From positions 2,108,001 through 2,172,000 of the forward strand of contig NZ_CP094467.1 of assembly GCF_023347235.1 (NCBI RefSeq): a stretch of DNA of 64,000 nucleotides, written 5' to 3'. The notes beneath the pieces are model-generated. The model was given only the letters and a program-made list of their open reading frames with translations, ran no database searches and was not told the origin of the DNA. Of this stretch, positions 13,329 through 38,282 are shown piece after piece. Made by a program: the position numbers and the translations under genes. Origin of the DNA: Faecalibacterium sp. I4-1-79 (GTDB lineage: Bacteria > Bacillota > Clostridia > Oscillospirales > Ruminococcaceae). The stretch's first letter is position 1. Every line of letters begins with the position of its first letter.

Positions 13329-13432
13329 TTAGCAGTTCTCAGCAAAGTACTTAATGGTACGAACCATCTGAGAGGTGTAGGAGTTCTCGTTGTCGTACCA
13401 AGACACGACCTGAACCTGATAGGTGTCATCGT
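13329..13432 (-). pseudogene. Orphan 3' fragment of gap (possible att site)
   Basis: About 103 nt match the last 34 codons of the intact gap gene at 55074-55177 with two internal mismatches (13344 and 13362), in the same orientation and including the stop codon. It encodes the GAPDH end [20 protein letters not shown]. Similarity stops abruptly at about 13432. There is no promoter or start, so it is not a gene. The most likely origin is duplication of the target during integration of an island into the 3' end of gap. Confidence 0.85.
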
Positions 13433-14103
13433 AGCTACGCTAAATTTTCACGATTTTTTTTGTGATCGTTCATAATTTCGAAACAACAGTTACAGTACCA
13501 CAGCATACCGTTGTCGTACCAAAACCGGCTTATTCGTATTAAAATTATACCATGTTTTGGCGTTATTTTCAAGTTTTTTCGCAATTTTGTGTTTTTGGAT
13601 TTTTTGCATTTCCGCACTTTTTATGCGTATGGATTTTCATGTGATATCGTGCTCACTCTTCGGAGCGTCCGGGACCCGGGGCTTCCGCCGGGGCGTTCGC
13701 CCTGCCCAGATGCGCTCCTCAGGGTGGGTGATGACGGGTTGAATTACGGTTTGATTGGTGCATTGATGGACTAGCTTGGACGATGGGTTATCTCTGATTT
13801 TTGAAGAATACTTTTGAAGCGATTGAAGTTGTTTTGATGTGCAGATTGCCTTGATAGCTTCTTGTCTGTGATGTTCCTTTGCTTAGCCTCCGCTCTCCCC
13901 TGCTACCTCTCTTGCTGAAATTTCCCCGGAAGTGATTTTGAGGGATGGAATGAGAAACGGATATATTTGTTCGATATAGAACAATTGCTCCATTATAAAA
14001 CCGCATGGATGAGATTTTGTAATCACACCCACACGGTTTGAGGGTTAAAAAAATTTATAAAATGTGGAATTTCCCTTTGTCTCGAACTAAAACCGTTTTG
14101 CTT
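13433..14103. other. Gene-free stretch between the gap fragment and the RT locus
   Basis: AT-rich DNA with a short GC-rich patch (about 13660-13730). No convincing gene. It contains one arm (13769-13781) of an inverted repeat whose other arm (14128-14140) lies in the last codons of the second RT gene. It could hold an untranslated RNA, but I see no strong promoter. Confidence 0.4.
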
Positions 14104-14125
14104 CACCAAATCAGTTGGTGTTTTT
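14104..14125 (+). terminator. Weak plus-strand terminator
   Basis: CACCAA, 5-nt loop, TTGGTG then TTTTT on the plus strand, ending at the stop codon of the second RT gene. It would stop a plus-strand RNA from the 13.8-14.1 kb stretch. Confidence 0.45.
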
Positions 14126-16134
14126 CAGTCCAAGCTAGTTATAAACCCTATTTGATTTTTTTTGTAATTTTTAAAAATTGTTCTTTGATAAGTTCTATAA
14201 GTAATCCGGTTATCAAAAGAGCGTATTTTCCCCCAGTTAAAAAAGCTTTTTTCCGGTTTGTTCCCCTGATTTGAACGTTGGAGAAACTCACATAAAAGCT
14301 TTTTAATTTTTTCAGACGGAAGATTTACCTTTGATTCATTTGGCGTTATATCTTTCACAAACTGAGTAATTTTTTTCTTTAATTCATTTGACAAGAAAGG
14401 GCAATTATGAAATATAAGAATGTACCAAAATTCCTCATACATCATTGGCTCTCTTTTCGAAATTCTATCAATTTTATCATCAACCACTAACTCAACTTCC
14501 GCAAGAATTTTTTCAAAGAAATTCTTATAATATTTAGAGTACCGCAGTATGATTCCCCACAATATTGGGTTGTCCAATGCCCGAATTCTCTCAACAATAT
14601 TCTCCTCCACCTTAGAAGATAGTGTCAAGCCGTACTCCGAAAGCAACGGAAACCAATCACATAAATCAAACAAGTTTCCTTTTTCAAAAATGAATGCATA
14701 TCGCCAAATACATTTTCTCAACTTTTCTCTGACAATTTCATTGGCTTTAAAATCAACTTCATCATTAATATACGATAGAATTGATATAACTTTCCGTGTT
14801 GATTCAAACGAAGGGCAATATGCATAGATGTATAAAGTTAAATCGATCAGGAGCATTGCCTTCCCATATTGATCCTGGTGAAAAAGATTATATCCATTCC
14901 TTTTCCTCCCAATATTGTTTAGTATTGTCGAAAGCAGAAACGAAACGATAGTATGTCTTTCTTCTGAATACTTTTTCATTAAAACGGTTATTTCATCTTT
15001 TATTCGGTCAACCGGGATAAACGTATCTTTTACCAAAATCTGTTCTTCCGTTGGAAACTTGCGGAAATCATCTAGTTTCCCTTGATAGAAAAAATCACCT
15101 ATAGCATCCGCCAGTAGCCTTGTGCTTTCAAGCCAGTCTTTAGGCAAACAGGGTGTAGCGTCTTTTATATATTTCAAATCATTTAATCTTAGCAAATAGC
15201 GTTCCGCAATCAAACGATACTGTTCAACAATGTAATCAATCACTACATCGTTTGAGGCAAAAATGAAGATATCATCAACGTATCGGTATATTTTGTAATC
15301 AATTCCATAAACAATATTTTGAATTTCTAACGCCCTCTTAACTTCACAATCAATCCATTGCAACAGAATTTCAGCCATCATTCGAGAAAACTCAGGTCCC
15401 ACCACAATGCCATTCGAAAAGCGTCCATTAATGTTTTGCATAATTCGATCGATTTCCACGAACAAATTAGAGTTTTTTGCATTTTTTGCATCAACTGTAT
15501 TTTTTTCTATGCACCATGAAAAAGCGTGGGTGTAAATGCTATCAAAGCATGCTTTATAGTCCACTTTTGCATATACTGGAAATTTAAAATTATTCACACG
15601 CCAAATATGCGAACCTGTAAAGCTGTTAATTGATTTATATGGACCAATTTTAAAAAAAGTGCCACTCTGTTGAATTATCGATCGATCGGCAAAACAGGCT
15701 CTGTCTTGAAAATAGTGAATTTCTTTTTTCAAACGGGAGCGGTACACTAAATCCGTATTTTTTTGATGGTATCGAATAGAAAATTCATGATGTTGTTCAA
15801 AATAGTCTAAAATTTCTTTTTGATAGCAGTCGATAAAGAAAAACAAATTCAGTGCTGAACATGGTTGAATAATGCTCATTTCCCTTGTTGAATTAGTCCC
15901 CTTGAGAATCCTATACTTTAACGGCTTTGTTCCCCAACCATCCTCAAATAAAGATTTTCCTGCGGCCTTCATCATGTAGAAGTCTTTCAACAAGTTATTT
16001 ATCACTTTCTGCTGAGGCTTTTCTGTCAAAAACTCATAAAAACTTGTAAAAGAAAACAGTTCCGAAACTTCCACCGGAAGCAAATCTGTCAGGATAAAAT
16101 CCAACTTATTTCTCTCTAACCCCATCCACCCCAT
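14125..16134 (-). CDS. Defence-type reverse transcriptase, large partner (DRT3 Drt3b/UG8-like)
   Basis: 669 aa. The RT fingers-palm is recognisable: motif A KVDYKACFDS with D192, motif B-like GIVVGPEFSRMMAEI (242-256) and motif C YVDD at 285-288, all catalytic aspartates intact. The last ~300 residues form a helical domain without a recognised fold. No maturase or integrase domain is present, so it is not a group II intron or retroelement RT. GGGGAGG lies 8 nt before the ATG. Paired with a second RT 172 bp upstream with an ncRNA between, it fits the two-RT DRT3 anti-phage type (UG3 plus UG8); the subtype is assigned from memory and size, not by alignment. AT-rich composition unlike the backbone suggests transfer. 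Confidence 0.8.
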   Translation of the reverse strand: MGWMGLERNKLDFILTDLLPVEVSELFSFTSFYEFLTEKPQQKVINNLLKDFYMMKAAGKSLFEDGWGTKPLKYRILKGTNSTREMSIIQPCSALNLFFFIDCYQKEILDYFEQHHEFSIRYHQKNTDLVYRSRLKKEIHYFQDRACFADRSIIQQSGTFFKIGPYKSINSFTGSHIWRVNNFKFPVYAKVDYKACFDSIYTHAFSWCIEKNTVDAKNAKNSNLFVEIDRIMQNINGRFSNGIVVGPEFSRMMAEILLQWIDCEVKRALEIQNIVYGIDYKIYRYVDDIFIFASNDVVIDYIVEQYRLIAERYLLRLNDLKYIKDATPCLPKDWLESTRLLADAIGDFFYQGKLDDFRKFPTEEQILVKDTFIPVDRIKDEITVLMKKYSEERHTIVSFLLSTILNNIGRKRNGYNLFHQDQYGKAMLLIDLTLYIYAYCPSFESTRKVISILSYINDEVDFKANEIVREKLRKCIWRYAFIFEKGNLFDLCDWFPLLSEYGLTLSSKVEENIVERIRALDNPILWGIILRYSKYYKNFFEKILAEVELVVDDKIDRISKREPMMYEEFWYILIFHNCPFLSNELKKKITQFVKDITPNESKVNLPSEKIKKLLCEFLQRSNQGNKPEKSFFNWGKIRSFDNRITYRTYQRTIFKNYKKNQIGFITSLD

Positions 16135-16162
16135 TGACTTTTCCTCCCCAATAGTATATGCT
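16134..16162 (+). promoter_or_regulatory. Promoter of the inter-RT ncRNA
   Basis: TTGACT (16134-16139), 17-nt spacer and TATGCT (16157-16162) on the plus strand. The -35 starts at the first base of the large RT gene's start codon on the other strand. Confidence 0.65.
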
Positions 16163-16167
16163 TAATA

Positions 16168-16308
16168 GGCAAGCATATGTTTTGCAGTGTTTATCATGTA
16201 AACACACACATCATCGGCACGGTAAACGCTTCGGCCAATATCGTGTTTAGAGCATAGCTACGGCAAATGCTCCGAGACGGTAAGGGAAACCTTACCGTTT
16301 TGTTTTTT
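16168..16308 (+). ncRNA. Predicted ncRNA of the two-RT system
   Basis: About 140 nt on the strand opposite both RT genes, filling the gap between them. It has its own promoter and ends in a perfect 9-bp GAAA-capped terminator (ACGGTAAGG/CCTTACCGT, 16277-16298) with TTTTGTTTTTT, whose end overlaps the stop codon of the small RT. Near the 5' end a 7-bp hairpin GTGTTTA/TAAACAC (16187-16205) is followed directly by single-stranded ACACA (16206-16210); a second hairpin GAGCAT/ATGCTC spans 16250-16272. Published DRT3 ncRNAs are reported to template poly(GT) from an ACACAC motif, so this stretch may be the template. Orientation is inferred from promoter and terminator. Confidence 0.7.
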
Positions 16309-17725
16309 AAAAGCCCACTTTCATTTTGATAAGATATTCCTTTACCAATCCATTATAAGACTTCCGAATACCGTTTGAATCAGTCGGTCGAATATGAACT
16401 CTTTCACAAAGCTTTTCAAGTGCATCATAGTCATAACCTATTCCTTCCACAAATAGAAGCGTCCGGTTGCTTTTCAAATTTTTATACAGATCATATCCGC
16501 TTGCCGCATTCCTTTTTGAGGCATCGCTTGTAGCATACATTGCCAAAAAATACGGAATTGGAATTTTCTGACGTTGAAATTCCCATATAACCATATTTTT
16601 CAAAAAATCTGCCGTTTGCTTTTCAAGCGTCCACCCCTCTACAAAATAACGAAGTTCCGAGTAATTTGAAACAAACCCCTTCGTTTTCCAAACATTCCCA
16701 CTCGAATATTTTGATACATACACTACACGAGATGTAAACGCTCCCAGTCTCAACCGTAGTAATTCTACATCATGATAATCCGAACTGGATGGCTCACTGT
16801 ACAACTTGATCAGTTGCCTTACTCGGCGGCTATATTTTTCTTGCTTTTCCTGTGTAATCCCATACATCAATTTAACTGTATGCTTTTCCGTTGCCTTTTC
16901 TTGCAATAAAAAGTGAAATTCATACCCCAGATAGCTTATTTTTGTAGGATTTTGCGTCAGATTTTTTTCAGATACACAGCAAAACTTCTTCATATTGAAG
17001 GAGGTTTTACATGATTTTTCAGATTTGATTTGCTTATCATAGAATACCTGCTGCAGCAATCGTTCAAAAATCGAAAGGATCTTCGAGCGTTCCCAATTTC
17101 GATTTAAAATCAATATACCATCATCGATATATCGTTCATAATAGATTAGTCCTAATTGAGAAAACTCTTGGCGAACCACACAGTCGAATACAGAAGCTAC
17201 TATTTCTGCCATCGCATTTGACGTGCTTAATCCTGCGTATGCATACTGCGTCTCTTCTACAAATTTTTTTATCAAATCTGCATCTCTTCGAAAAGACAAG
17301 TGGCTTTTCAGGAATTTCTCGTAGATATATGTTGCTGAAAGCGAGTTGAAATAATTTTTGAAATCAAATTTTACAATCGTAAATGCAGACATTTGGGCAA
17401 CCGCCGGAAGGGTATTAAACAGCGTCTTAACCATTTTATTACGATTGGGATAGTGAACACGAAATACTTTATCTAGGAGTTGTTTCAGGCATTGGCAAAT
17501 TATGTTCTCTGGCTCCAACAGGTCTGGATATCGGTAGACTTGACGTGTATGTCCATCTTGCGTAAGAACTAATGATTCCAACCTTGAAAAATCCAAGTCA
17601 TTGTTTTTCAAAGCCTCCTTTGTACGATTCACGGCTTTGTCCAAATCTTCCTGTGTAAAACCTGTTTGATAATTCGAAATTATAATTTTCCTAGCAGCAT
17701 ACTCTATTTCATTTTCAATTTGCAT
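16307..17725 (-). CDS. Defence-type reverse transcriptase, small partner (DRT3 Drt3a/UG3-like)
   Basis: 472 aa if started at the ATG at 17725, which has GAAGGA upstream; a longer form from 17776 lacks a ribosome site. Motif A KFDFKNYFNS (catalytic Asp121), motif B-like GLSTSNAMAEI (165-175) and motif C YIDD (199-202) are intact, so the enzyme should be active. The C-terminal ~200 residues are helical and of unknown fold. No RNase H, maturase or protease domain. It is first in transcription order, followed by the ncRNA region and the larger RT. I infer that it is the partner that copies the ncRNA, by analogy with Drt3a. Confidence 0.8.
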   Translation of the reverse strand: MQIENEIEYAARKIIISNYQTGFTQEDLDKAVNRTKEALKNNDLDFSRLESLVLTQDGHTRQVYRYPDLLEPENIICQCLKQLLDKVFRVHYPNRNKMVKTLFNTLPAVAQMSAFTIVKFDFKNYFNSLSATYIYEKFLKSHLSFRRDADLIKKFVEETQYAYAGLSTSNAMAEIVASVFDCVVRQEFSQLGLIYYERYIDDGILILNRNWERSKILSIFERLLQQVFYDKQIKSEKSCKTSFNMKKFCCVSEKNLTQNPTKISYLGYEFHFLLQEKATEKHTVKLMYGITQEKQEKYSRRVRQLIKLYSEPSSSDYHDVELLRLRLGAFTSRVVYVSKYSSGNVWKTKGFVSNYSELRYFVEGWTLEKQTADFLKNMVIWEFQRQKIPIPYFLAMYATSDASKRNAASGYDLYKNLKSNRTLLFVEGIGYDYDALEKLCERVHIRPTDSNGIRKSYNGLVKEYLIKMKVGF

Positions 17726-17803
17726 AGATAAAACCCATCCTTCAATGTAGCCCAATCTTAACTTATAATTCATCAAACGTAAAACACAGATTGATTTGAT
17801 TTC

Positions 17804-18074: not shown

Positions 18075-18401
18075 TTATTTCAGTTTTGCGAGAATCTCGT
18101 CTGCACTCACGCCTTCGGCAAGCAATTTTTTCAAAACAGATTCTGCTTCAGCCTTTTTCGCGTTTTCTGCAGCCTTAGCATCTGCCTTTACCTTCTTCGC
18201 TTCCAGGGATGCCACTTCTTTTTCGGCCTTCTTCAGAGCAGCCTTCTTCTCTTTCAGGTCAGCCTTCAAAGTGTCAATGTTTGCAGTGGTGGAAGTGATT
18301 TCAGAAGTCAGAGAAGCGGTGGATTCCTTTTTCTCTGCGATTTTGGATGCAAAGTCATTGGTAATCTTGGGGCAGTTCTTGCTTCCTTTGGTTCTGGGCA
18401 T
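18075..18401 (-). CDS. Small coiled-coil protein (108 aa)
   Basis: A highly charged Lys/Ala/Glu-rich helix from about residue 20 to 95, strongly predicted coiled coil, after a basic N-terminus MPRTKGSKNCPK. The end LLAEGVSADEILAKLK looks like a short helical hairpin. No enzyme motif. Possible DNA-binding accessory or phage-like protein. It has its own terminator and a GAGGTAG ribosome site. It lies directly upstream of the RT operon on the same strand, but the terminator argues that it is a separate unit. Confidence 0.6.
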   Translation of the reverse strand: MPRTKGSKNCPKITNDFASKIAEKKESTASLTSEITSTTANIDTLKADLKEKKAALKKAEKEVASLEAKKVKADAKAAENAKKAEAESVLKKLLAEGVSADEILAKLK

Positions 18402-18809: not shown

Positions 18810-19955
18810 TTACGAAACGAAATTGCCTGTAAAAGCCTTGGCATAAATCAATTGTAAAAAACCCTGCGGTAGTCCTCCAATTCCTCCGGCTGTTCGATCC
18901 ACCCAGTTTGAATCCAACGTACTCAAAAACGTTGCATATTGTTGTGCCAGAGAAAAAAGCAATTGCGCTGCCGGTTTATCAAAAACTTCCAATCCTTCTT
19001 GTGCATTCTTGCAGTCACAACACAAATAGCCGAAATACTTATATGTTCCGTCAGCCAGTTTAGTTCTAATCGAAACCACTATAGCACAATTATAATATGC
19101 ATCAAAATCTATATGTTCATTCATATAATTTTCACTGTTTTTCTTTGCGTTATTCACAACAAAATGATCTTTTTTTAAACAATGAACAAAATCTCCGTTT
19201 CCATCTATGGTATATTTTTTATTGCCCACCTCTCTTTCATGTTTTTCGAACGTTTCTTTATCTCTGAATGCAGTGTATACAACAATTTTATCGCGGCTGT
19301 CTTTCCTTGCAACATACGGCTTATCAAACAATTTTATCGTTGCTGCAACATCAACTTGTATTCCTTTCGATGCCAAATAAGACTCTTCTATGCGTACTAA
19401 ATAATTCAATAGATTACTTGAATATATTTTATAAACATCATATAGTCCGGCGGCAAACTCATTAAAAGAGTAAACGACCTCTTTCTGAAGCTCCTCTGTA
19501 TCTTTCATTCCACCCTTTTGAAGTGTTTCCAATATATGATATGAACGTTCTGCAATATTAGGGATTCGAGTACAAAATTCATTATATAACTTGCTAACAT
19601 TCTTTTGATTAACACAGATATCTTCAATCTTTTTTCGCACTTCATTTAACTTGGCTTCTTCATCAGTCTGGCTCTTCTTCAAATCATTTTGAAGTTTTGT
19701 GTTTTCATCTTTTAGCTTTTTTATTTCCGATTGAATTTCATCAACCTTTTGGGTCATTCGATAGCGTTCATGAAGAGCCCAGAGCCAAGCGAAAACAGCT
19801 ATCACCTCCGCAACCAGTAATCCAATAAAAATATATACAAACCCGTTAGATTCCGTTCGGAACGCCGAAATCAAAGTGGCCACTATACCTACAACACCAA
19901 CAAGCCATCCCATTTTATCGCCAAATCCTATTTTTTTCCACTCACTCTTTTTCAT
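18810..19955 (-). CDS. Two-TM, coiled-coil protein with GAF-like C-terminal domain
   Basis: 381 aa. Two N-terminal membrane helices (about 15-30 and 42-62, GWLVGVVGIVATLI and FVYIFIGLLVAEVIAVFAWL), a coiled coil of about 45 residues (VDEIQSEIKKLKDENTKL), a helical middle, then an alpha/beta region ending in FGYLCCDCKNAQEGLEVF and LLFSLAQQYATFL, which looks like the last strand and helix of a GAF-type sensor. The ATG at 19955 follows GGAGGGG, which decides the start. It lies in the same AT-rich block as the RT pair, so a role in defence, for instance as a membrane effector, is possible but unproven. Confidence 0.55.
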   Translation of the reverse strand: MKKSEWKKIGFGDKMGWLVGVVGIVATLISAFRTESNGFVYIFIGLLVAEVIAVFAWLWALHERYRMTQKVDEIQSEIKKLKDENTKLQNDLKKSQTDEEAKLNEVRKKIEDICVNQKNVSKLYNEFCTRIPNIAERSYHILETLQKGGMKDTEELQKEVVYSFNEFAAGLYDVYKIYSSNLLNYLVRIEESYLASKGIQVDVAATIKLFDKPYVARKDSRDKIVVYTAFRDKETFEKHEREVGNKKYTIDGNGDFVHCLKKDHFVVNNAKKNSENYMNEHIDFDAYYNCAIVVSIRTKLADGTYKYFGYLCCDCKNAQEGLEVFDKPAAQLLFSLAQQYATFLSTLDSNWVDRTAGGIGGLPQGFLQLIYAKAFTGNFVS

Positions 19956-20189
19956 TTTCCCCTCCACCCATAATATTGGTGTATGTCCATGATTTTGTAG
20001 CTAATAATACAATTATAAGCGCCTTTGCATTCTTAGCCACAGCATCTACACACTGTGTTGCCTGCCGCTCACCACGTAGAGGTATGCAAAGTTTCGAGCA
20101 GCGTAGGTAGCCACGGTCTCCCATGGCTCCAGTATATCACAAGTTCATTTTAAAATCATCATTGTGATGAAAAATATTATCTAATTGCG

Positions 20190-36923: not shown

Positions 36924-38282
36924 TTAGTGGTTTTCTCCACTCATAGCAGTAGTTTGACCCTCGGAAACTCCCTCGGTACTTTCAGGCATAAACAGGATTT
37001 TCACGGTTGCCAGCATGATTTTCAAATCCTCGATCAGGCTTGGATGTGCAATGTACATCAGATCCATCTGCAGTTTATCGTAGGGGGTGGTGTTGTATTT
37101 GCCATACACCTGTGCATAACCGGTCAAGCCTGCCTTTGCCTGAAGCCGCAGTGCAAACTCCGGCATCTCCTCGCAGTACTGGGCAGCGATCTCCGGGCGC
37201 TCCGGACGAGGGCCCACAACAGACAAATCACCCTTTAGGATGTTCAGCAACTGAGGCAGTTCGTCCAGACGGCAGGCGCGGATAATGTGACCGACCTTTG
37301 TAATACGGTCATCCTTGTCGCCGGTGGAAAGACGTGCCACGCCATCCTTTTCTGCGTCCACGCGCATAGAGCGGAACTTCAAGATCTCGAACTGCTTACC
37401 ATCTTTGGTCAGGCGCACCTGTTTATAGAAAGCGGGACCACCATCGGATTTGACCGCAATGGCCGTAATCAGGAACAACGGACTCAGGATGATCAGTGCC
37501 ACCAGCGAGATCACAATGTCCATCGCGCGCTTAACGAACAGGAACTCCGGACTTGCCATGTAACGACCGACGCGCAGCATCGGCAGGTGGAACATATGCA
37601 TCGGCCAAGCGCCACTCATAATAACGTCGCCCACACGGGGGATGACGAACATATTGATGCCCTTCCCTACGCAGTGCTTCAGGATAATGTTTCGTTCATG
37701 GCTGTGAACACCACTGACAAAAACAGTCTCCATGCCGTCCAGAATGCTCAGGTCTGCCAAGCACTCCGACACGCTCAGGGTAACCTGCACGTCGTATTTC
37801 TGGCTCAGACCGTACTCGTTGATGAGCTTTTCCATACCATGACGCACATCGTAGACGACTGCGGTCTTCTGCGGCGGAAAGGTCTTGTAGTACCATTTAT
37901 GTGCACAAGATGCCCAGATCGCAGCCATCACCAACTGCCCCGCAATTGCCGCAATACCCGGCAACAGGTTGCAGAGCTTTGCCGACATCAGGCAGATCAC
38001 GATGTACAAAATACCATCGGTTGCCATCGCGCCAAGGATCTGGCCATACACAAGCTCCGAGACCCGCTGCATGGACATCCAGAACGCATCGTAGATTTTA
38101 CCGAGTGCAATGTACAGGATAAAAAACAGGCCTAAAATCGCAAAATGACCCTCCCATGCCAGATTTGCATAGGTCTGGTGCGAGTAGTACAGGAACCAGC
38201 AGCCCGCAAACGGCAGCTCGATCATCAGAACATTCAGGATCTTCACGACCCTCAACATCACATCATGCTGAATCTTTGACAT
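36924..38282 (-). CDS. Polyprenyl glycosylphosphotransferase (priming sugar transferase, WbaP/CpsE-like)
   Basis: 452 aa. Four to five N-terminal membrane helices, a CoA-binding-like middle domain, and the C-terminal bacterial sugar transferase domain with KRAMDIVISLVALIILSPLF, KFRSMR, RLDELPQLLNILKGDLSVVG, PRPERPE and LRLQAKAGLTGYAQVYGKY. It transfers the first sugar phosphate to undecaprenyl phosphate, starting repeat-unit assembly. ATG 38282 follows GGAGAGG; an upstream in-frame TTG lies within that site. It is the first gene of the polysaccharide cluster in transcription order. Confidence 0.93.
   Translation of the reverse strand: MSKIQHDVMLRVVKILNVLMIELPFAGCWFLYYSHQTYANLAWEGHFAILGLFFILYIALGKIYDAFWMSMQRVSELVYGQILGAMATDGILYIVICLMSAKLCNLLPGIAAIAGQLVMAAIWASCAHKWYYKTFPPQKTAVVYDVRHGMEKLINEYGLSQKYDVQVTLSVSECLADLSILDGMETVFVSGVHSHERNIILKHCVGKGINMFVIPRVGDVIMSGAWPMHMFHLPMLRVGRYMASPEFLFVKRAMDIVISLVALIILSPLFLITAIAVKSDGGPAFYKQVRLTKDGKQFEILKFRSMRVDAEKDGVARLSTGDKDDRITKVGHIIRACRLDELPQLLNILKGDLSVVGPRPERPEIAAQYCEEMPEFALRLQAKAGLTGYAQVYGKYNTTPYDKLQMDLMYIAHPSLIEDLKIMLATVKILFMPESTEGVSEGQTTAMSGENH

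Follow-up and report, generated by a model that had tools for sequence, protein, structure and literature searches.

A DRT3 variant, mainly of Bacillota, with an antisense-encoded, putative template RNA between its two reverse transcriptase genes

The window, a stretch of 64,000 nucleotides from Faecalibacterium sp. I4-1-79, carries a pair of reverse transcriptase (RT) genes of the anti-phage defence system DRT3 and, in the gap between them and on the opposite strand, an RNA gene that very probably gives one of the two enzymes its repeat template. We hold with high confidence that this antisense-encoded RNA, by analogy with the E. coli system, would be copied by Drt3a into poly(dTdG), with Drt3b making poly(dCdA). 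Comparison with related loci establishes the identity of the genes, the structure and (by covariation) the strand of the RNA, the position of its AC run, the geometry of its promoter and its link to one clade of DRT3; the copying and the poly(dTdG) product are carried over from E. coli DRT3.

Results

Sequence matches identify the RT pair as DRT3

The best PADLOC model for the large RT was Drt3b (E 1.8e-121) and that for the small RT was Drt3a (E 1e-34). The window Drt3b matched the PDB Drt3b structures 9z6y and 26cz; the window Drt3a as a single query found no PDB chain at E 0.001, and a profile built from 15 Drt3a relatives matched the Drt3a chain 9z6y_A (E 5.8e-26). Judged from these matches, the adjacent Drt3a (UG3) and Drt3b (UG8) genes are a DRT3 pair. 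Both lie on the minus strand, with the start codon of drt3b at 16132-16134, the stop codon of drt3a at 16307-16309, and a gap of 172 nt in which Rfam models at gathering scores gave no match.

The sequence-only reading had placed in this gap a promoter with 17-nt spacing, a stem-loop-rich RNA of about 140 nt and a terminator, and every one of these elements was found where it had put them (Table 1). Its finer claims held too: the hairpin at 16187-16205 is followed by a free ACACA, which is unpaired in the predicted fold, the -35 hexamer overlaps the start codon of the large RT gene by one base, and the T run of the terminator extends over the stop codon of the small RT gene. The plus strand of the element folds at -50.8 kcal/mol (z -6.05), with 0 of 200 shuffles as good; the minus strand folds as well, although less stably (z -4.53), because palindromes fold on both strands.

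Table 1. Positions of the RT genes, promoter and RNA elements in the window
Feature	Position	Strand	Remarks
drt3b	14125..16134	-	class 1 (UG8) RT; expected protein-templated poly(dCdA) synthase
drt3a	16307..17776	-	class 2 (UG3) RT with YIDD motif; expected RNA-templated poly(dTdG) synthase
-35 hexamer, TTGACT	16134..16139	+	base 16134 common to the drt3b start codon; position conserved
-10 hexamer, TATGCT	16157..16162	+	17-nt spacer; position conserved
antisense-encoded DRT3 ncRNA, ~140 nt	16169..16308	+	ends inferred; fold z, covariation, strand test
stem-loop 1	16169..16185	+	consensus fold, covariation, window fold
stem-loop 2, GTGTTTA-TCATG-TAAACAC	16187..16205	+	directly 5' of the putative template; consensus fold, covariation, window fold
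ACACA, putative exposed template	16206..16210	+	AC run in full 16202-16210, then UCAUC; unpaired in predicted fold
stem-loop 3	16216..16247	+	variable sequence, pairing kept
stem-loop 4	16250..16272	+	consensus fold, covariation, window fold
stem-loop 5, terminator	16273..16308	+	13-bp stem and GAAA loop (16273-16302), then TTTTTT; T run overlaps drt3a stop

Around the operon, the stretch between drt3b and a glmM-like gene holds a fragment (13332-13445, minus strand) that, we presume, resembles the C-terminus of glyceraldehyde-3-phosphate dehydrogenase. On the drt3a side, the protein encoded at 18810-19967 (minus strand) has membrane helices and a coiled coil by eye, and an HDV-like ribozyme of the F. 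prausnitzii family (RF02682, 70.7 bits) lies just 5' of its ORF at 20023-20102 (minus strand). Searched by tblastn at E 1e-3, the fetched loci, which reach about 2 kb beyond drt3a, contained no match to this protein or to its neighbour at 18075-18401.

Three operon layouts match the Drt3b tree

Related loci were taken from whole-genome searches, genome contigs (the best 80 of 329), viral contigs and seven phage and plasmid records; among the viral contigs, the window Drt3b as sole query found no relative and an alignment query did find relatives. Genes were called with two profiles, and 96 of 116 loci were kept. Those removed had no DRT3 pair (L002, L006-L009), were copies or near-copies (L019, L026, L058, L099, L105, L109, L116), or had truncated or broken genes (L030, L041, L080, L095, L103, L111, L112, L114); some near-copies were retained (e.g., L038/L039 and L049/L054/L066), so that counts given here refer to loci rather than to independent events.

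In layout 1, the published one (60 of the 96 loci), drt3a and drt3b abut or overlap, with a gap of 0-10 nt. Layout 2, that of the window, has drt3a, a gap of 138-289 nt and drt3b on the same strand and comprises 28 loci, including L031, which was moved by hand from the overlap to the gap class because its drt3b frame extends upstream of the true start. In the eight loci of layout 3 (L010, L014, L052, L074, L078, L081, L088, L097), whose named hosts are Bacillota, the two genes are divergent. These layouts match the Drt3b tree: on an unrooted tree of 78 rows, made by a quick method with SH-aLRT values only, two layout changes were needed without L031 and three, the minimum possible, with L031 as its own label, against a mean of 30.3 after shuffling. 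Support was 100 for the branch of the 28 layout-2 rows (L031 included) and 84 for the eight divergent rows.

Where a layout-2 row has a named cellular host, this host belongs to Bacillota, with one exception. L027, a MAG that bears the label Candidatus Aphodousia (Sutterellaceae, Pseudomonadota), has a Drt3b that nests among Clostridia, through either transfer or a misbinned contig. Three phage or viral layout-2 records also have the antisense AC run, namely L012 (NC_029078.1, Erysipelothrix phage SE-1, in which drt3b carries the annotation "DNA binding protein"), L011 (MT836158.1) and L098 (IMG/VR). The stop-to-stop frames of Drt3a in L036-L040 are 598-656 aa long, compared to 431-510 aa elsewhere (one truncated at 222), which suggests an N-terminal extension.

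The AC run changes strand and place with the layout

On the antisense strand of the layout-2 gap, an AC run of at least 5 nt was present in all 28 loci (shuffle mean 5.6), whereas the sense strand had one in four (shuffle mean 6.4), the shuffles preserving base composition only and related loci not being independent. Homologous loci lacking the run, which would have refuted the sequence-only reading, were thus not encountered in this layout. For runs of at least 6 nt the counts were 25 of 28 (antisense) and 0 of 28 (sense). The run is just 5 nt in three loci (L012, L025, L042), which counts against the antisense-template reading. In layout 1, all 60 loci have a sense-strand run of at least 6 nt in the 250 nt that follow drt3b, and one has such a run on the other strand; the same sense-strand search in layout 2 gave none in 28 loci. 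A second AC-run RNA downstream of drt3b in layout 2 was considered and rejected, there being no excess of AC runs in that position. The divergent loci of layout 3 have an antisense run of at least 5 nt in six of eight (shuffle mean 1.3), and these runs are short (ACACA or ACACAA) and without a clear adjacent hairpin.

A stem that ends close to the AC run on its 5' side, at a distance of at most 8 nt, was found in 25 of 28 layout-2 loci, 53 of 60 layout-1 loci and one of six divergent ones. The mean fold z-score on the 5' side of the run was -2.02 in layout 2 and -1.08 in layout 1, as against -0.20 and -0.39 on the 3' side, and 5'-side values below -1 were found in 22/28 and 29/60 loci, respectively. 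The window itself scored only -0.5 on the 5' side: the first bases of its AC run belong to the stem, so that the 31-nt slice cuts the stem that the full fold shows. Layouts 1 and 2 have the template module in common, though without detectable overall homology.

The promoter is locked to the start of drt3b

Taken alone, the promoter in the window is not significant (9 of 12 consensus matches, with about 15% of shuffles as good), and a scan of 15900-16500 gave three further promoter-like sites, one of them on the minus strand with 10 of 12 matches (four sites found versus 1.8 expected). It becomes convincing because its position is fixed in related loci, and only thereby. Over the 28 layout-2 loci, a single distance from the start of drt3b gives the best match to TATAAT (mean 5.18 of 6, versus 1.95, sd 0.55, over all offsets), and the TTGACA peak falls one base inside the drt3b start codon (4.14 of 6, versus 1.64, sd 0.43). 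Of the 28 loci, 21 have CATTG, which sets the -35 element at the start codon; its absence from the other seven counts against the antisense-template reading.

The Shine-Dalgarno sequence of drt3b (GGAGG, minus strand) lies, by eye, inside the promoter spacer in the window and in most layout-2 rows. The RNA, with its start upstream of the drt3b ribosome-binding site, would leave that site uncovered; therefore any cross-talk should occur at transcription or through the spacer.

Covariation and G-U pairs mark the antisense strand as the RNA

Ten close layout-2 relatives were aligned over the entire RNA (alignment A3). Of the 41 pairs in the consensus, 19 are changed on both sides, and 97.1% of the cells are paired, against 37-46% in slid controls; none of 500 shuffles reached any of five measures. 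The pairs include 46 G-U and 1 A-C when read on the antisense strand, but 1 G-U and 18 A-C when read on the sense strand, and all ten RNAs fold better as antisense. In a second clade, aligned separately (L003, L023, L025, L028, L029), there are 45 pairs, of which 23 varied on both sides, with 23 G-U versus 1 A-C for the antisense strand and 7 versus 16 for the sense strand. An excess of G-U over A-C is the asymmetry expected on the strand that is the RNA; thus three lines of evidence assign the RNA to the antisense strand, namely the covariation, this asymmetry and the promoter tied to the drt3b start codon. Plain MAFFT alignments of two further sub-clades (L011, L032, L033 and L042; L035-L038 and L040) yielded almost no consensus fold, with nine pairs each and hardly any energy, and because of this the RNA of these sub-clades rests on the position of the AC run, the promoter and a local hairpin.

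The terminator is clear in the window, where the hairpin and T run score as a terminator on the plus strand, but it is no clade-wide strand marker. A terminator-like hairpin follows the AC run on its 3' side on the antisense strand in 14 of 28 layout-2 loci (shuffle mean 1.8), and the sense strand passes the scan in 13 of 28 (shuffle mean 1.1). The outcome is mixed for the refuting condition that the sequence-only reading had set, homologous loci without the terminator, and it counts against the antisense-template reading. The antisense stems have 13-17 pairs in 12 of the 14, the sense ones 6-10 pairs, and the T tract is interrupted in several loci. On our reading of alignment A3, the terminal loop is GNRA in all ten rows.

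A covariance model (R1) was built from the ten A3 loci, as the sequence-only reading had proposed as a check, and run on 38 sources. Among 18 held-out layout-2 loci, eight were matched at E < 0.01, all antisense and in the gap, which agrees with the predicted place and strand; two more were matched there only at E 1.3 and 7.2, and eight were missed. The 28 matches in these sources also included a stray one in the window at 37672-37800 (E 0.28) and seven on the sense strand of loci used to build the model, which echo the antisense signal (E 0.025-1.3). None of the eight divergent loci was matched. With R1 as the query, in that one direction, no match at E up to 10 was found in 66 published-layout sources, some of them truncated or copies, so that this search revealed no homology between layout-1 and layout-2 RNAs. 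That result, the misses among the held-out loci and the two sub-clades with almost no consensus fold count against the antisense-template reading.

In 297 genomes of the family, R1 gave nine matches at E <= 0.01, three of them below 1e-5 and all three in genomes with DRT3; the DRT3 genome behind L003 was missed in this search because its filters were stricter. Six weak matches (E 1e-4 to 0.0073; G050, G052, G076, G117, G167 and G231, as L120-L125) may be chance or distant RNAs. Among 197 genomes of the order, the genome that contains the window was the sole one to pass 1e-5.

The residues that select the Drt3b product are conserved

E22, R71 and R241 of E. coli Drt3b are reported to select dA and dC (PMC13174585), and on the 26cz alignment a residue count gives E22, R84 and R251 as their counterparts in the window. 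These are present in all 28 layout-2 Drt3b proteins; across the 96 loci, both arginines are invariant and E22 is replaced by Asp in two of the 60 layout-1 proteins. The two residues that PMC13213688 names for Deng et al., E26 and R253 in chain 9z6y, fall in the same columns as the nucleotide-selecting residues of the window Drt3b. The C-terminal Tyr that serves for priming in E. coli (Y666) ends seven of the 28 layout-2 proteins and is lacking in 21, the window included, which counts against the antisense-template reading. The window protein ends in FITSLD, with Y649 and Y657 near the end as candidate priming residues. The C-termini of Drt3b vary within the layout-2 clade (the window; L012, L035-L040).

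Alternative readings of the gap

The gap could hold a sense-strand structure of the drt3a-drt3b mRNA, such as a drt3b leader, an attenuator or a processing site, with the AC run as the complement of a UG-rich motif. Inverted repeats do fold on both strands, as the sense-strand z of -4.53 illustrates, and sense terminator-like hairpins occur in 13 of 28 loci. Nevertheless, the strand tests in two separately aligned clades disfavour this proposal, through the G-U/A-C asymmetry, and all ten A3 RNAs fold better as antisense; moreover, the fixed promoter is directed antisense, and copying of a UGUGU RNA would yield poly(dCdA), which is what the other enzyme makes. We regard an mRNA structure as very unlikely.

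Only a slim chance is left to an antisense RNA that is mainly a cis-acting regulator, lowering drt3b expression through promoter competition or pairing with the mRNA, and is not a template. The overlap of the promoter with the start codon and Shine-Dalgarno sequence of drt3b is what such a regulator would have, and the RNA is by position complementary to most of the spacer between the two genes; against it, the RNA retains its AC run on the 3' side of a hairpin, a feature common to the layout-1 RNAs, and in layout 2 AC runs are not in excess downstream of drt3b. The regulator and template roles can coexist. A chance origin, in which the gap happens to be rich in palindromes and its AC run has no meaning, fits the weakness of the window promoter on its own (p ~0.15), but is contradicted by the conservation, the covariation and the held-out matches of the model, and we give it next to no credence.

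Discussion

The antisense-template reading suggests the following course of events. From a promoter nested over the start codon and Shine-Dalgarno region of drt3b, an RNA of about 140 nt would be transcribed back toward drt3a, against the direction of the operon, and would end at the hairpin terminator on the drt3a stop codon; RNA synthesis from this promoter and transcription of drt3a and drt3b may interfere with one another. The folded RNA would bind Drt3a and expose ACACA 3' of stem-loop 2, which would act as the 5' template boundary. Drt3a could then copy ACACA/CACACA to TGTGT, slip back two nucleotides and repeat, giving poly(dTdG), and Drt3b, its selecting residues unchanged, would make the complementary poly(dCdA). 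The resulting poly(dTdG)/poly(dCdA) duplex would be the defence product.

As described in PMC13174585, E. coli DRT3 likewise comprises Drt3a, Drt3b and a small ncRNA with an AC-repeat template beside a stem-loop, and the E22, R71 and R241 residues are conserved in the window system. The RNA there, however, is encoded on the sense strand downstream of drt3b, whereas that of the window is antisense, lies between the RT genes and has its own promoter over the drt3b start; in addition, the E. coli Drt3b has a C-terminal Tyr and the window Drt3b has none. The published DRT3 RNA sits downstream of the operon, so that an antisense RNA between the two genes departs from the arrangement on record and is a variant of it. 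For the RNA model of the same work, the 250 nt that follow each operon were taken from E. coli DRT3 and its close relatives, and the flanks of Drt3b homologues, 1 kb to either side, were searched afterwards; the antisense RNAs of layout 2 were therefore no part of its starting set. The main text of PMC13174585 does not contain the words antisense, opposite strand or divergent, and no description of the antisense layout was found in the DRT3 literature covered (PMC13174585; PMC13314766 and PMC13213688; titles and abstracts).

Other systems are more distant. DRT10 (PMC12632851) has a 9-nt repeat in the system studied, a poorly conserved template loop, and one RT with a SLATT protein, whereas the class to which the window belongs keeps its template dinucleotide, as if this were fixed by the partner Drt3b. 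DRT9 resembles it in ncRNA-templated repeat synthesis (as cited in PMC13174585) but makes poly(dA) and has no second RT.

It is possible, although on balance doubtful, that DRT3 lineages hold different and perhaps unrelated template RNAs, at different places and on different strands, with the same AC template in each because its complement is written into the protein of the partner enzyme (E22/R71/R241); the RNA would then be exchangeable and the template constrained. As part of this tentative idea, the nested promoter of layout 2 would make the synthesis of template RNA and of RT mRNA mutually exclusive, and might serve to sense that a phage has taken over transcription.

DRT3 uses two templates for its DNA, one of RNA and the other of protein, and the layout with an antisense RNA between the RT genes is an apparently undescribed variant, carried by a whole branch, mainly of Bacillota. 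With the location of the RNA known, the layout-2 clade becomes testable; re-spacing the RT genes or expressing them separately would silently lose the template. The nested promoter also suggests a control that is impossible in the E. coli layout.
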